A stretch of 53,458 nucleotides of DNA from a bacterium (lineage in GTDB: Bacteria; CAIWAD01): NCBI GenBank assembly GCA_030685015.1, contig JAUXWS010000025.1:1-53458 (forward strand), read 5' to 3'. This document shows positions 5,375-14,904 of this stretch, piece after piece. The position numbers and the translations under genes are program-made. The notes beneath the pieces are model-generated. The model had not been told where the DNA came from. It worked only from the letters and a program-made list of their open reading frames with translations, and made no database searches. The stretch's first letter is position 1, and each line of letters opens with the position of its first letter.

Positions 5375-5827
5375 CTAGAGGCCGGCCTGCTTGATCTGCT
5401 CGCGGCTGTCGGCCTTGACCGTGTCCTTGGCCTTCTGGGTGGCGGTCGGCGCGGCACAGGCGCCCGGCTTCGTGGCGCAGCCGGAAGCGGCGGCGCCCTG
5501 GATGGTGCAGGAACCGTCGGCCTTCACATGGCAGGTGACGGTCTTGCCGTCCACCACGCAGGTCTTGGTTCCGGCGGCCGCGTTCACGGTGCCAGCGGGC
5601 ATGCTGCAGGAGCCGTCGGCATTGACCGTGCAGGTGACGGTCTTGCCGTCCACGACGCAGGTCTTGGTGCCGGCCACGGCGTTCTCAGCCTGGACGCCGC
5701 TCAGGGAGGCCTTTTCGGCCTTGGCTCCCTTGGACGGGCAACAGCCGGCCCCGGCCATGGCAGGCGTGCTTTGCAGGACGGCGAAGACGACCAGACAGCC
5801 ACCGAGGAGGGCGAAGAGCTTCTTCAT
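5375..5827 (-). CDS. Exported Cys-rich protein with two tandem repeats, function unknown
   Basis: The 150-residue product starts at the ATG ending at 5827, which is preceded by GAAAGGAATCC. A typical signal peptide (MKKLFALLGGCLVVFAVLQ...AMA) is followed by a GCCPSKG motif. Two near-identical repeats of about 25 residues share the pattern AGTKTCVVDGKTVTC-x-V-x-ADGSC, each holding three cysteines. A lower-complexity tail holds two further cysteines. In the periplasm the cysteines could form disulfides or bind metal. I do not recognise a family. The gene is divergent from the ferritin-like gene, with about 225 bp of shared upstream DNA. Confidence 0.75.
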   Translation of the reverse strand: MKKLFALLGGCLVVFAVLQSTPAMAGAGCCPSKGAKAEKASLSGVQAENAVAGTKTCVVDGKTVTCTVNADGSCSMPAGTVNAAAGTKTCVVDGKTVTCHVKADGSCTIQGAAASGCATKPGACAAPTATQKAKDTVKADSREQIKQAGL

Positions 5828-6053
5828 GGCGGATTCCTTTCTATGCATGTGGGTTGATGACCGGGTTGAAATTAGGTAAACCGAAGAAACTTTCTCAAGC
5901 ATTTCTTCGCCGACAACGGGCCGTATACTCGCAAATCCCAGGCATAGTTCCGCATTTGACCATGAAATGCTCGATCCAGCCTCGGCCGGCCGGCATTTAT
6001 TGTTCTGGCCCGATTGCCTATCATAAGTGGCCATCTAGAAGGAGGAACGGATC

Positions 6054-6578
6054 ATGAGCGGACGGGAGCTGGAATTCAAGACGGTGGAGGATGTCTTCAA
6101 ATACGCCATCATGGTGGAGAGTCGCGGCCACGAGTTCTACCGGGCCACGGCAGAGAAGACAGCCAACGAGACGGCGCGCCGCTTCTTCGAGGAGTTTGCC
6201 AAGGAGGAGTTGGACCACAAGCGCATCTTGGCGGACCTGTACAAGACATGGCGGGACAAGGCCACCTGGGATGAGGAGATCCTGCACAGCGGACGTCCCC
6301 ACGGCTTCGACATCCATGATCCCATCCTGAGCGAGGCTTTCAAGAAGAGCCTGAGCACCACCCATTTCGACACCACCGCCCTGGACATCGCCATCGTGCT
6401 GGAGCGGGAGGCGCGCGATTTCTACACCAAGGCGGCGCAGAAGGTGGAAGACCCCGAGCTGCGCAAGATCCTCACCTGGTTGGCCCAGTTCGAGGACGAG
6501 CACTACGACACCATGGTCAAGCTGCACGAGTCGCTGCGGGCCGAATACTGGCACGACAACAACTTTTGGCCGTTCTAG
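6054..6578 (+). CDS. Ferritin-like / rubrerythrin-type di-iron protein
   Basis: The 174-residue protein is a ferritin-like four-helix bundle. Carboxylate and histidine ligands appear in two repeated halves: E22 in VESRGHEFY with E52 and H55 in EELDHKR, then LEREARDFY and EDEHYDTM near residues 114 and 147. There is no C-terminal rubredoxin CxxC domain, so it is rubrerythrin-related and not a full rubrerythrin. Such proteins handle peroxide or iron in the cytoplasm. AAGGAGGAACGG lies just upstream of the ATG. A clear terminator follows. Confidence 0.85.
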   Translation: MSGRELEFKTVEDVFKYAIMVESRGHEFYRATAEKTANETARRFFEEFAKEELDHKRILADLYKTWRDKATWDEEILHSGRPHGFDIHDPILSEAFKKSLSTTHFDTTALDIAIVLEREARDFYTKAAQKVEDPELRKILTWLAQFEDEHYDTMVKLHESLRAEYWHDNNFWPF

Positions 6579-6887: not shown

Positions 6888-8306
6888 ATGAAGAAATGGT
6901 TGAAGCCGCTACCCGGCATCGTGCTGACCGCCGCATTGATGGTGGGCTGTGCCGGCGATGACGGCGCCGCAGGACCGCAAGGACCGCAGGGGCCCCAGGG
7001 TCCGCAAGGACCCCAGGGAGACGCGGGTCAGGATGGCCAGAACTACCAGGCCTGGGCCTGGGTGGGCTCCAACGGCAGCTCGTGTTATGGCTGCCATTCG
7101 GGCAAGGTGCAGGATTGGATGGGCACGGGTCATCCCAATGCATTCACCACCCTGGTGACGGCGGGCCAGAGCAACAATCCCTATTGCTTGCAGTGCCACA
7201 CGGTGGGCTGGGACGCGCCGGTGGCCTTCGGCGACACCACGGTGACGGACCACGGCCTGGACCACAGCGGCTATGACGACTTCTGGCCCGCCCAGAACAC
7301 TGACGACACCGCCCGTCTGCACGCCCTGGAGGGTGTCCAGTGCGAAAACTGCCACGGCTCCATGGGCCCGGGCATCTATCAGCACAACCCGCAGGTTTCG
7401 CTGGCCACTCGGTTTGAGAATGGCCAGTCGTTGTCCCCCTGCGCCTCCTGCCACGGCGAGCAAATGGCGCAGTGGCATGAAGGCGCCCACGGTTCGTATT
7501 ACGAGCGGACAGGCCACACAGTGGAGGAGTACGCGGCCGAGTGGAACAGGACCGCGTGCTGGGAATGCCACGGCGCCGAGGGCTTCATCTCCAAGTTCGA
7601 CCCTGACTATGCCGGCATGCTGCCGGGTGCGACCCTGGACTTGGTGGGCTGCGTGGCTTGCCATGACCCGCACAACGCCACCAACACGGCCCAGTTGCGC
7701 ACTATGGCGGACTTCTCCGTGGTCTATGACGTGGTGCCCGCCACCTTCACCGGCCGCGGCGCCAGCCAGCTCTGCGCCCAGTGCCACCACGCCCGCCGCA
7801 CGGTGGCCAACGTCAACTCGCAGATCTTCAACAACGGCACCCTCCGCGGTCCGCACGAGAGTCCGCAGATGGACATGATGCTGGGCGCCGGCAGCTATGA
7901 GATCCCGGGCTACACCTACACGCGGACGGCCACCCACAACGTGATCCAGAACCCCTGCGTGACCTGCCACATGGAAGTGACCAGCCCGCATGGCTACCCG
8001 CTGCATGACCACACCTTCCATGCCACCACCACGGCCTGCACGGGCTGCCATCCTGGCCTGACCAACTTCGATTTCAATGGCGGGCAGACGGCCATCAGCA
8101 ACCTCATGGGGCAGATCGAGGCCCACTTCGGCGCCACCGGCGACCAGCTCTCCGACACGGTCTGGAATGCCCAGTTGACGGCCCGGGAGCGCGAAGCGGT
8201 CTATGCCTACCTCTACGTCAAGAACGACGGCAGCCGGGGCGTCCACAACCCCAACTACGCGCGCACCTTGCTTCAGAACGCCCTGCACTACCTGCAGAAT
8301 CCCTGA
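6888..8306 (+). CDS. Nine-haem c-type cytochrome lipoprotein with collagen-like spacer
   Basis: The 472-residue product starts at the ATG 5 bases after AGGAGG. An N-terminal signal ends at MVGC, a likely lipidated cysteine. Residues about 28-50 are an eight-triplet Gly-x-x tract made mainly of GPQ. Nine CxxCH haem-attachment motifs follow, at about residues 65, 101, 151, 185, 224, 255, 296, 357 and 384, and additional histidines could serve as distal ligands. It should be a periplasmic or surface multihaem electron carrier or oxidoreductase. The motif spacing recalls cytochrome c-554/NapC-related proteins, but no specific enzyme is recognised. The collagen-like spacer is unusual for this family and could act as a stalk. 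The gene stands alone with its own terminator. Confidence 0.9.
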   Translation: MKKWLKPLPGIVLTAALMVGCAGDDGAAGPQGPQGPQGPQGPQGDAGQDGQNYQAWAWVGSNGSSCYGCHSGKVQDWMGTGHPNAFTTLVTAGQSNNPYCLQCHTVGWDAPVAFGDTTVTDHGLDHSGYDDFWPAQNTDDTARLHALEGVQCENCHGSMGPGIYQHNPQVSLATRFENGQSLSPCASCHGEQMAQWHEGAHGSYYERTGHTVEEYAAEWNRTACWECHGAEGFISKFDPDYAGMLPGATLDLVGCVACHDPHNATNTAQLRTMADFSVVYDVVPATFTGRGASQLCAQCHHARRTVANVNSQIFNNGTLRGPHESPQMDMMLGAGSYEIPGYTYTRTATHNVIQNPCVTCHMEVTSPHGYPLHDHTFHATTTACTGCHPGLTNFDFNGGQTAISNLMGQIEAHFGATGDQLSDTVWNAQLTAREREAVYAYLYVKNDGSRGVHNPNYARTLLQNALHYLQNP

Positions 8307-8358: not shown

Positions 8359-8369
8359 CTTTGAATGTG

Positions 8370-8512
8370 TTGCCCTGGTGTTGCCCTGGTGTTGCCCTGG
8401 TGTTGCCCTGGTGTTGCCCTGGTGTTGCCCTGGTGACGCCCTGGTGTTGCCCTGGTGTTGCCCTGGTGTTGCCCTGGTGTTGCCCTGGTGTTGCCCTGGT
8501 GTTGCCCCGGTC
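8370..8512. repeat. Tandem repeat, 13 copies of an 11-bp unit
   Basis: The unit TTGCCCTGGTG repeats 13 times without a break. Copy 7 (8436-8446) begins ACG instead of TTG, and copy 13 (8502-8512) is TTGCCCCGGTC. It fills the space between two convergent genes, starting 11 bases after the cytochrome terminator, and its last two bases overlap the rhlE stop codon. The open frames across it (repeated LPWCCPGVALV) reflect the period of 11 and are not genes. There are no spacers, so it is not a CRISPR. Confidence 0.97.
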
Positions 8513-10467: not shown

Positions 10468-10498
10468 ACCACTAAGTGCCACTGTTGCCTGGCCGGGT

Positions 10499-10508
10499 TG
10501 TCATGACA
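10499..10508. promoter_or_regulatory. TGTCATGACA palindrome upstream of the YgbA_NO gene
   Basis: A perfect 10-bp palindrome lies 32 bases upstream of the YgbA_NO start, in the divergent region with the Crp/Fnr gene. It shares TGTCA/TGACA half-sites with the palindrome at 11412. Operator function is a guess. Confidence 0.3.
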
Positions 10509-10625
10509 TCTTCAAGCATCCCTTGTCGCGTCCTTCCTTCCACATGTACCTTGAGGCCCGTTCTGTCCACAGGTCGCCTTTGCCGCGGAGAGATCGATGG
10601 GGAATCGTCCTTGGATCCTGCATAC

Positions 10626-11348
10626 ATGAGCGCCGGAACAAGGGAGGGGCAGGTGCTCGACCGGAACGCCGCCGACGGGTGCGCGGCCTGCGCCGGCCCC
10701 GGCTCCTTCTTCTCGCCGCTGTCCGACGAGGAACACACCCTAGTCCTGGCCCGCTCGTCCCAGCGGCGCTGCAGGCGGGGCCAGGTCCTCTATTTCCAGG
10801 GCGAGGAGCTGACCCATCTCTTCTGCGTGAAGAGCGGCCAGATCAAGCTGCTCAAGACCGATGCCCGGGGCCACGAGACGGTCATCCGCTTCCTCGGTCC
10901 CGGCGACGTGACGGGCTTCCGCCCGCTGCTGGCGGGGGAGGCCACGGCGGCGGCGGCGGAGTGCGTCACCGCCGTGGACCTCTGCCTGGTGCCGCGCGCC
11001 GTCTTTTTGAAGCTGGCCCTGGAAAGCCGTCCCTTCAGCCGCCATCTGTTGGCTTTGCTCGCCCGTGAGCTGCGGGACTCCGAGGAGCGCTGGGCGGCCC
11101 GAGCCGGGGAGACGGCCAGCCGCCGGGTGGCCCGCTTGCTGGGCCAGCTGATGGGTCACGACCGAGCGGCCGGGCCGGGCGGCGTGGTCATCGAGGTGCC
11201 CAAGCAGGAGATCGCCCGCGCCGTCGATGTCACGCCTTCCACCCTGTCGCGCATCCTGGGTCGCTTCGCCGAGCGGGGCATTCTGCAGATCGGGACCCGC
11301 CGTCTGATCATCCTCGCCCCCGACCGCCTGCCGGACCCCCCGGACTAA
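10626..11348 (+). CDS. Crp/Fnr-family transcriptional regulator
   Basis: The ATG at 10626 gives 240 residues. A cyclic-nucleotide-binding-like beta-roll spans about 35-150 (RRGQVLYFQGEELTHLF, GETAS... boundary at 160). The C-terminal winged helix has the recognition segment EIARAVDVTPSTLSRILGRF at about 199-218. Two cysteines, CAAC near residue 20, recall the N-terminal cluster of FNR, but the third FNR cysteine is not in place, so an Fe-S cluster is doubtful. By its position next to YgbA_NO and a multihaem cytochrome gene it may be a DNR/NnrR-like NO or redox regulator. No ribosome-binding site is strong at this start. Confidence 0.85.
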   Translation: MSAGTREGQVLDRNAADGCAACAGPGSFFSPLSDEEHTLVLARSSQRRCRRGQVLYFQGEELTHLFCVKSGQIKLLKTDARGHETVIRFLGPGDVTGFRPLLAGEATAAAAECVTAVDLCLVPRAVFLKLALESRPFSRHLLALLARELRDSEERWAARAGETASRRVARLLGQLMGHDRAAGPGGVVIEVPKQEIARAVDVTPSTLSRILGRFAERGILQIGTRRLIILAPDRLPDPPD

Positions 11349-11427: not shown

Positions 11428-11465
11428 TGAAGACGGTTTCCGCAGCGCTGCCCGGAGGAATCCAC

Positions 11466-13652
11466 ATGAAGACCTTGCTGTTGCTCCTGCTCGCGGGCGC
11501 GCTCGCGGCCCCCGTCCGCGCCCTGCCCGTGCCCACCACCCTGGCTGATTTCGCGCTGCCCGGCTCCCAGCCCGGCCAGTCAGGCACCCTGGAGAATCCC
11601 TCCCATTGCGACAACTGCCACGCCAACTATGGGGAGCAGGCGGTGGAGCCTTTCCACAACTGGCGCGGCGGCATGATGGCCCAGGCCATGCGGGACCCGC
11701 TTTTCCTGGCCTGCCTCGCCGTCGCCAACCAGGACGCCCCCCAGAGCGGCGACCTCTGCCTGCGCTGCCACACCCCCAAAGGCTGGCTGGAGGGGCGCAG
11801 CATCCCCACCGACGGCAGCGCGCTCACCGCCAACGACCGCCAGGGCGTGCAGTGCGCCTTCTGCCACCAGCTGGTCACGCCCACCGCCCTGGGCGTCAAT
11901 CCCTGGCCGGGGGAGGGCCACTACCTGAGCGGCACCTACCCGCGGGACCAGACCTACCTGGGAACCCTCGCCCAGATCCCGCCGGCCTCCGCCAACGGCA
12001 TGTACATCGTGGACTCTGATCGGGGCAAGCGCGGCCCCTACTTCGATTCCGTGGCCCGCCACGCCGACTACTACTCGCCCCTGCACAAGGATTCGCGCCT
12101 CTGCGGCACCTGCCACGACGTGAGCAACCCCGTCTTTTCCCTCGATCCCGCCACGGGACGCTATCTGCCCAATGCCTTTGGCCAGGCGCCGCCCAGCGCC
12201 GACCCCCGTGCGCAGTTCCCCATCGAGCGCACCTTCAGCGAATGGCAGGTGAGCCAGTACAACACGGCGGAAGGCGTCTACGCGCCGCAGTTTGGCGGCA
12301 ACCTGAGCGTGGTGCGCAGCTGTCAGGATTGCCACATGCGGGATGTCACCGGTCACGGCTGCAGCATGAACAACGCGCCGCTGCGCACGGACCTGCCCCA
12401 TCACGACATGACGGGCGGCAACACGGTGGTGCCGCTCTGGGTGGCCCAGCACTTCCCCGGAGAAGTGAGCGTGGCGGCCCTGAACGATGGCATCCAGCGC
12501 GCGCGCTACATGCTGCAGAACGCCGCCGGGCTCAGCCTGGAGATGGATCTGGACGGTCCCCGGCCCGTGGCCCGCGTGCGCGTCACCAACGAGACCGGTC
12601 ACAAACTGCCCTCGGGCTATCCTGAAGGCCGCCGCATCTGGCTGAACATCAAAGGCTTCGACAGCGGCAACCAGCTTGTTTACGAGTCGGCCGCCTACGA
12701 CCCGGCCACCGCCATCCTCTCCCATGACGCGGAGGCCAAGGTCTATGAGATCAAGCCAGGCCTCTCGCCCTTCGTCGCCGGCCTTGTGCAGCAGCCGCCC
12801 GGCCCCAGTTTCCACTTCGTGCAGAACGACACCATCTACTTCGACAACCGCATCCCGCCCCGCGGCTTCACCAACAGCGCCTTCCAGGAGATCCAGTCGC
12901 CGCCGGTGGGCCACACCTACGCCGACGGCCAGTACTGGGACGACTCGTTCTACGAGCTGCCGCTTGGCGCCGTGCGGGTGGAGGCCGCCCTCTACTACCA
13001 GACGGTGAGCCGCGAGTACATCGACTTCCTGCGCGACGAGAACGTCACCAACACGGCCGGACAGCTCGCCTGGAACCTGTGGGACACCCATGGCCGCTCC
13101 GCGCCGGAGCTGATGAACAGCGCCGCCACCGCCTTCGTCCTGCCGTCGCCGGAGGCCGCCTCGGCGCCCACGCCGCCCGACGGGGCCACCGATCAGCCGC
13201 TGGACGCCCTGCTGGCCTGGGCCTCCGGGGCGCGCGCCACCCGCCACCTGATCCACCTGGGTTGGGAGGAGCCGCTTCCCCTGGTCGGCAGCAGCGAGGA
13301 GGCATGGTGGGATCCGGGACCGTTGGCGGCGGACAGGCTCTACCACTGGCGCATCGACGAGGAGGGACCGGGCGGACTCACGCCGGGACCCACGTGGAGC
13401 TTCCGCACGGTCGCTCCCCTGGCCGCGCCCGCACCCCTCCTGATCGAGCGCCTGGAGGATGGCCGACTGCGCCTGAGCTGGCCGGCCGTGCCCCAGGCCC
13501 AGAGCTATCGCATCTACCGCGCCGATGCGCTGGGACCCAGCCTGCCCCCGCCCCTGCTGGTGGCGGAGGTGACGGACACCCACTGGATCGACCAAGACGC
13601 CGTGGCTTTGATTCAACGGGGATTCTATCTGGTCAGGGCAGCCCGACCTTGA
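11466..13652 (+). CDS. Five-haem c-type cytochrome with C-terminal fibronectin-III-like domains
   Basis: The ATG at 11466, behind GGAGGAATCC, begins a 728-residue precursor with a clear signal peptide. CxxCH motifs occur at about residues 48, 98, 129, 216 and 289 (CDNCH, CLRCH, CAFCH, CGTCH, CQDCH). The spacing and the block HYLSGTYPRDQ resemble large cytochrome c-554-like 'multihaem cytochrome c' proteins of unknown substrate. A beta-rich middle (about 350-550) and two FN3-like domains (about 566-645 and 650-728) follow. It is probably periplasmic or surface-attached. Regulation by the upstream Crp/Fnr gene is suggested by the palindrome at 11412. A terminator at 13736 ends the unit. Confidence 0.88.
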   Translation: MKTLLLLLLAGALAAPVRALPVPTTLADFALPGSQPGQSGTLENPSHCDNCHANYGEQAVEPFHNWRGGMMAQAMRDPLFLACLAVANQDAPQSGDLCLRCHTPKGWLEGRSIPTDGSALTANDRQGVQCAFCHQLVTPTALGVNPWPGEGHYLSGTYPRDQTYLGTLAQIPPASANGMYIVDSDRGKRGPYFDSVARHADYYSPLHKDSRLCGTCHDVSNPVFSLDPATGRYLPNAFGQAPPSADPRAQFPIERTFSEWQVSQYNTAEGVYAPQFGGNLSVVRSCQDCHMRDVTGHGCSMNNAPLRTDLPHHDMTGGNTVVPLWVAQHFPGEVSVAALNDGIQRARYMLQNAAGLSLEMDLDGPRPVARVRVTNETGHKLPSGYPEGRRIWLNIKGFDSGNQLVYESAAYDPATAILSHDAEAKVYEIKPGLSPFVAGLVQQPPGPSFHFVQNDTIYFDNRIPPRGFTNSAFQEIQSPPVGHTYADGQYWDDSFYELPLGAVRVEAALYYQTVSREYIDFLRDENVTNTAGQLAWNLWDTHGRSAPELMNSAATAFVLPSPEAASAPTPPDGATDQPLDALLAWASGARATRHLIHLGWEEPLPLVGSSEEAWWDPGPLAADRLYHWRIDEEGPGGLTPGPTWSFRTVAPLAAPAPLLIERLEDGRLRLSWPAVPQAQSYRIYRADALGPSLPPPLLVAEVTDTHWIDQDAVALIQRGFYLVRAARP

Positions 13653-13716: not shown

Positions 13717-14904
13717 ATGGACAGTCTTACGAAAGGCGGGTCCGCCCGGGGGACCCGCTTTTTGCGGACGAACTGGGACGCGATCCGGGAGCGCTTGCTG
13801 TCGGGCACCTGCCAGCCGTCACCGGTGAAGGAGGCGCTCATCCCGAAAGGCAAGGGCGAGATGCGCCGCTTGGGCATCCCGACCGTGCTGGACCGTTTCA
13901 TCCAGCAGGCCCTGCTTCAGGTCCTGCAGCCGCTGTTCGACCCGACCTTCTCGCGGCACAGTTACGGCTTTCGTCCAGGGAGAAGCTCGCGCGAGGCGAT
14001 CCGCGCCGCGCAGCGGCACATCCAGGACGGCAAGCGCTGGGTGGTGGACACGGACCTGGAGACCTTCTTCGACCGGGTCAACCACGACGTGCTGATGGGA
14101 CGGCTCGCGGCTCGGAATTCGGATCGCCGGGTGTTGGGACTGATTCGCCGCTACTTGAAGGCCGGGCTGCTGTCCGGCGGGGTGGTGGTGGAACGGCACG
14201 AAGGCACGCCGCAGGGCGGGCCCTTGTCACCGCTTCTGGCCAATGTGCTGCTGGACGAGGTGGACCGGGAGCTGGAAGGCCGGGGCCACGCCTTCATCCG
14301 CTACGCGGACGACTGCAACGTCCATGTGCGAAGCCGTCGGGCCGGGGATCGGGTGATGGGCTGGTTGCGGCGGCTGTTCACGGGACTCCATCTGAAGGTG
14401 AACGAGGCCAAGAGCGCGGTGGATCTGGCGACACGCCGCAAGGTGCTGGGTTACAGCTTCTGGCTGGGACCCGGCGGAGTGGTGAAGCGCCGGGTGGCCA
14501 AGAAAGCCCAGGACACAGCCCAGGACAAACTGAAGGAGCGGGTGCGTCACACGACGCGGCGCAGGGGAGGGCGGAGTCTGGTCCACGTGGTGCGGGAACT
14601 GAGGAGCTACCTGCCGGGATGGAAGGCGTACTACCGTCTGGCAGACACGCCCAAGGTCTTTGCTGCGCTGGATGAGTGGATCCGCCACCGGCTGCGGGCA
14701 CTGCAACTCAAACACTGGAAGCGGGGCAGGACCACCTTTCGGCAGCTGCGTCAACTGGGACTGTCCCAGGATGAAGCAGCGAGAGTGGCGGCCTGCACAC
14801 GCAGCTTGTGGAGGAATCCGGCCCTGCTTGCAGGCATGCTCCTGAACAAGGTCCTGCCGATCCGTTTCTTCGACGAGCTGGGGCTACCCCGGCTCGCCAC
14901 GTGA
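13717..14904 (+). pseudogene. ltrA: Group II intron reverse transcriptase/maturase, N-terminally truncated
   Basis: The frame is open for 395 residues. From residue 17 onward it aligns by eye with bacterial group II maturases: LRTNWDAIRERLLSG, RRLGIPTVLDRFIQQ, SYGFRPGRSSREA, VDTDLETFFDRVNHD, EGTPQGGPLSPLLANVLLD and the catalytic RYADD. Maturase and DNA-binding-like C-terminal segments end FFDELGLPRL, as in intact relatives. The normal first 50-70 residues (RT0, with GVDG) are missing. The initial 16 residues translate the cytochrome terminator. An in-frame GVDG lies upstream at 13669-13680 but is cut off by TAG at 13693. RT catalytic residues are intact, so activity in trans cannot be excluded. 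Confidence 0.8.
13736..13763 (+). terminator. Strong terminator after the five-haem gene, at the intron junction
   Basis: The perfect stem GCGGGTCC/GGACCCGC with a 7-base loop is followed by five Ts (13759-13763). Recognisable reverse-transcriptase coding sequence starts at once after the T tract. Group IIC introns are known to insert just downstream of such terminators. Confidence 0.85.

Follow-up and report, generated by a model that had tools for sequence, protein, structure and literature searches.

A nonahaem lipoprotein cytochrome with a conserved collagen-patterned tract, a probable tether for electron transfer at the cell surface

One protein encoded in the window, by which we mean the whole stretch of 53,458 nucleotides analysed, raises the question of what a collagen-like run of Gly-x-x triplets does between a predicted lipid anchor and nine haems. 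No report of such a tract joined to a multihaem cytochrome was found in the literature searched, and the window protein is a new combination of known parts. Its reading frame of 472 amino acids has a Shine-Dalgarno-like AGGAGG just 5' of the ATG, and the protein starts with MKKWLKPLPGIVLTAALMVG followed by Cys21 (Table 1). The layout given in the original prediction, a lipidated cysteine, a Gly-x-x tract and nine CxxCH motifs, was borne out by the LMVGC lipobox, ten uninterrupted triplets and nine motifs, and 44 residues lie between the lipid Cys and the first haem Cys. The description of the tract as Gly-Pro-Gln was right in part; Gly-x-x runs throughout, and the five GPQ triplets are confined to the centre.

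Table 1. Features of the window around the nonahaem gene and further along the stretch
Feature	Positions	Strand	Remarks
Small Cys-rich, secreted-looking protein	5375-5953	-	99-bp repeat x2 (TKTCVVDGKTVTC); no Pfam family above cut-off
Rubrerythrin/ferritin-like protein	6054-6578	+	Upstream of the nonahaem gene; likewise upstream in the closest relative (L002/G003)
Nonahaem gene	6888-8306	+	ATG at 6888, stop at 8304-8306
Signal peptide and lipobox LMVGC	6888-6950	+	Motif read directly; Cys21 predicted to be lipidated
Ten in-register Gly-x-x triplets	6954-7043	+	Residues 23-52: GDD GAA (GPQ)5 GDA GQD GQN
DNA repeat of GPQ units	6967-7029	+	Period 9/18/27; units differ at third codon positions
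Nonahaem domain	7044-8303	+	Nine CxxCH; OcwA/NrfA/c554 superfamily; three C-terminal helices
11-bp minisatellite	8367-8511		GTGTTGCCCTG x 13, 96% match; directly 3' of the nonahaem gene; not found in the other loci compared
Crp/FNR-type regulator	10476-11348		Adjoins the multihaem gene in the next row
Second secreted-looking multihaem protein	11463-13652		Five CxxCH by pattern; long C-terminal part
Group II intron reverse transcriptase-like protein	13717-14904		Judged from sequence only

The profile of an 18-row family alignment, run against the PDB, found OcwA first (6I5B, E 2e-26), with OmhA at 1e-16 (6QVM) and NrfA, octahaem nitrite reductases, MccA and c554 below these two. Here c554 aligned at positions 9-135 and NrfA at 298-425, which are the matching halves. 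Foldseek with the predicted model gave OcwA (rank 1, E 2.2e-5) and OmhA as the sole matches below E 0.001. The TM-score of the model to OcwA was low (0.37), hence we read the likeness as superfamily membership and not as detailed structure. The monomer model has a modest pLDDT of 64; the C-terminal helices (396-413, 432-447 and 455-470) are well predicted.

OcwA (TherJR_2595) is a cell-surface terminal reductase of the monoderm Thermincola potens, built from c554- and NrfA-like parts (PMC6703420). The window protein resembles it in its nine haems, the c554-like N-terminal and NrfA-like C-terminal parts and the three C-terminal helices. It is shorter, however, and OcwA differs in its mature start EKPAD, the lack of both lipid anchor and Gly-x-x tract, and its monoderm host (PMC6703420). 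A further mark of OcwA-like nonahaems is a pair of five-coordinate haems, on which the conserved histidines listed below bear. OmhA of Carboxydothermus ferrireducens belongs to the same superfamily and is a secreted or surface cytochrome tied to extracellular electron transfer (PMC7829351); it has eleven haems, and no lipobox or tract is reported for it. In a published tree OcwA stands among nonahaems of Gram-negative bacteria (PMC7829351), and the window family may fall within that group. Membership of the MtrC/OmcA/UndA family was rejected, as there was only a partial PF22113 match and no MtrC-type structure among the PDB matches.

The same comparisons bear on the possibility that the protein is a reductase of nitrogen or sulfur oxyanions, of the NrfA/ONR/MccA kind and on the periplasmic side, and not an extracellular electron-transfer protein. 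Its C-terminal part matches the profiles of NrfA and the octahaem nitrite reductases, and slow nitrite reduction has been found for OcwA (PMC6703420). Further, the distal candidates for the nine haems are seven invariant non-motif histidines (82, 201, 262, 323, 350, 375 and 453) and His166, which occurs in 17 of the 18 alignment rows. One haem or more is thus left with no invariant His on its distal side and may have the open site such an enzyme requires, or a distal site other than His. Against this, there is no CxxCK motif, OcwA and OmhA and not NrfA are the top matches, and the homologues cluster with large cytochromes of the electron-conduit type, and we find a reductase of this kind unlikely.

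Those clusters were seen in four homologous loci, in which the nonahaem gene is accompanied by a haem-less protein of about 415 amino acids and by cytochromes with 11-12 and 7-8 haems; three of the four also encode a NapC-like protein with 17-18 haems. The genes of G390 and G159 follow one another as a 17-haem cytochrome with a NapC/NirT-like start, the nonahaem lipoprotein, the haem-less protein (about 413 amino acids), an 11-haem cytochrome and an 8-haem protein. G391 and G388 are variants with 11- or 12-haem and 7-haem partners, G388 having the 18-haem NapC-like protein as well, and in G389 and G161 the arrangements are related, with different haem-less proteins. Pairs of 16-19-haem cytochromes also occur near the conduit-like clusters (L157 14624-19001, L158 55-5019 and L159 1-4820). 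The four proteins of about 415 amino acids are mutually homologous (21-42%), with signal-peptide-like starts and beta-alternation z-scores of 1.8-4.4, as compared to a median of -0.4 in 64 controls, five of which reached 1.8 or more. They had no Pfam match, only irrelevant weak matches by PDB profile, and a fold model too poor for use (pLDDT 30); hence we propose them as candidate outer-membrane barrels from the alternation score and the start of the protein.

The four loci thus resemble a porin-cytochrome conduit. As in Mtr and Pcc complexes, a lipoprotein cytochrome has as partners a candidate barrel and a multihaem cytochrome of periplasmic type; unlike in those complexes, the candidate barrel is unrelated to MtrB by Pfam, and the lipoprotein cytochrome is OcwA-like and not MtrC/OmcA-like. 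Around the window gene this arrangement of adjacent barrel and periplasmic multihaem genes is absent. The gene is solitary in its genome, as it is in several others. No MtrB/PioB barrel was found in the window's genome, and a search of that genome and its phylum, run without a positive control, gave no homologue of the candidate barrel. Other multihaem proteins of the window's genome, with 8 to 22 CxxCH, are encoded on contigs C44, C66 and C70 (L141-L144), and none bears a tract. The proposal of a surface electron-transfer device is hence supported indirectly, by the similarity to OcwA and OmhA and by the neighbourhoods of the homologues, while the solitary gene speaks against it; by analogy, surface electron transfer by the window protein seems likely.

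We now turn to the tract itself. In 2000 shuffles of the linker, ten in-register triplets were never obtained (p<=0.0005). At the DNA level no two of the five GPQ units are alike; all ten pairs differ, solely at third codon positions, which indicates that the pattern was kept as protein while the DNA drifted and disfavours both recent slippage and random drift. Neither chance nor recent slippage accounts for the tract. It should be noted that the Pfam Collagen match of the window protein (E 9e-6, 25.8 bits) is below the gathering score of 27.2, which the homologue in G003 exceeds with 32.4 bits.

Within the window's small phylum, represented by five genomes including its own, the gene is found in three others at 51-65% identity; one genome of the window's genus is without it. 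Scanning genome contigs with the single sequence gave no match. With a four-row alignment as query the scan succeeded, giving 21 loci in other genomes along with more distant relatives among the 386 genomes sampled. The 21 loci include records labelled Delongbacteria, Electryonea, Latescibacterota, Gemmatimonadota, Krumholzibacteria, Zixibacteria and Eisenbacteria, and in the tree the window protein groups with a Delongbacteria-labelled genome. Four to twelve in-register triplets are kept in the window protein and in 14 other homologues that have no folded spacer (L156 is counted with two copies; L030 is truncated by the start of its contig, and L019 by an end of its own). Loss of the tract from the homologues of all other genomes would have refuted the original prediction; instead, homologues with the tract were found in several candidate phyla. 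In a pool of 14 tracts, which takes in an unrelated dihaem lipoprotein of the window's genome, Pro occupies 60 of 115 X positions, the Y residues are chiefly Asp, Gln, Ala and Glu, and acidic residues outnumber basic ones by 66 to 2 over X and Y.

In seven homologues the slot of the tract is instead filled by an Ig/PKD- or FN3-like domain, with 0-5 triplets left. In four of these (L012, L017a, L021 and L031) 3-5 triplets lead into an Ig/PKD-like stretch, a label that was given from the look of the sequence and not by profile search, and three carry domains of this kind without a tract (L008, with FN3-like repeats, L017b and L018). The type of spacer changes at least three times on the tree, and in genome G386 one copy with the tract and one with FN3-like domains are sisters. 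This exchange is our main argument for the tract being a spacer. The suggestion of a stalk that holds the haem domain off the membrane therefore gains support, both from the conservation of the tract in the family and from the folded domains in its slot, and on these comparisons a spacer role is well supported.

Taken together, we regard it as probable that the window protein is a lipid-anchored nonahaem cytochrome of the OcwA/NrfA/c554 superfamily that transfers electrons, probably at the surface, from the end of an extended acidic Gly-x-x tether. After the predicted lipidated Cys the tract would form an extended, strongly acidic tether, for which we infer a polyproline-II-like conformation. 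Its 30 residues, which at full stretch could reach about 9 nm, would space the haem domain from the presumed outer membrane. Analogy with OcwA, and with the conduit-like clusters of the homologues, makes it probable that the haem domain delivers electrons at the cell surface, the acceptor being either extracellular or soluble. Glycine at every third position is more than a plain flexible linker would need, and this counts against an extended tether.

The strict glycine register, held in all tracts despite variable X and Y residues, is what a triple helix demands, and the tract could accordingly be a genuine short collagen helix that trimerises the cytochrome into a three-headed haem stalk. Some superfamily relatives (HAO, MccA and the octahaem nitrite reductases) are trimeric or built from trimers, which is a point in favour. 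The length argues otherwise, with 4-12 triplets in the family against 50-79 in Scl proteins (PMC8968730). The shortness (ten triplets here, 4-5 in some relatives) and the excess of acidic over basic residues together speak against a stable helix. No hydroxyproline is expected, Thr, which in bacterial collagens occupies Y most often (PMC8968730), seldom occurs in the tracts, OcwA is a monomer or dimer (PMC6703420), and the tract is unordered in the monomer model (pLDDT <40). The trimerisation raised in the original prediction thus found no support, and we consider a trimerising helix improbable. Like the bacterial collagen-like proteins Scl1/Scl2 and BclA, the window tract is an uninterrupted Gly-X-Y run with Pro favoured in X; unlike them it is far shorter, acidic, part of a haem lipoprotein and under the Pfam Collagen cut-off.

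We hold it just as improbable that the residues beside the Cys act as a sorting or export signal with the rest of the tract as filler, in which case the haem protein might point inwards or outwards from the outer membrane. In all examined members, those without a tract (CEDDEN, CDDDDDD, CTEEED) included, one or more of the residues from +2 to +5 are acidic, and the lipoprotein export signals of Bacteroidetes are acidic and near the Cys (PMC5080379). However, there is no match to K-(D/E)2 as the minimal motif, and acidic residues follow the Cys in four of nine nearby non-haem lipoproteins also, so that such a signal could not be told apart from general lipoprotein composition; ten in-register triplets and the exchange with Ig-like domains would be left unexplained. 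Functionless drift of a low-complexity repeat, which would account for the variable length and X/Y residues and for the detectable 9-bp DNA repeat, is very improbable given the position and register conserved across several candidate phyla and the third-position-only divergence of the GPQ units.

The tether is not restricted to one haem fold. A near-identical tract (CSGEDGATGPQGPQGPMGPQGPAGEDGTD) is carried by a dihaem lipoprotein with class I cytochrome c domains (PF00034) on contig C24 of the window's genome. This was the one further real protein found by Pfam Collagen in the window's phylum. The only two clear Collagen-family matches of the window's genome are both cytochromes, of unrelated folds. 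A version with four triplets is present in a hexahaem lipoprotein of G161. Among other lipoproteins of the window's phylum the pattern matches were due to chance, save for family members, and L075 of G003 (Collagen E 0.008) was dismissed for having no run of six triplets.

More tentatively, and with some doubt, we speculate that Delongbacteria, Electryonea, Krumholzibacteria, Latescibacterota, Zixibacteria and Gemmatimonadota-like genomes encode a new porin-cytochrome conduit, whose surface part would be the OcwA-type nonahaem lipoprotein on its collagen-patterned and possibly trimeric tether, this tether being an interchangeable spacer module common to the unrelated dihaem cytochrome. Systems of the Mtr, Omc and OcwA types have been described, and the nonahaem family adds a named, testable candidate for electron export in uncultured candidate phyla. 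Further, the exchange of Gly-x-x tract and Ig-like domain in one slot makes it possible to ask directly by experiment what the length of the spacer does for electron transfer at the surface.

We also considered whether the tract is exclusive to cytochromes, which was rejected as genus g114 (G115, G252 and G379) has many haem-less CEG-collagen lipoproteins. These (L118-L120, L129-L131 and L133-L139) have up to 47 triplets and diverse non-haem domains.
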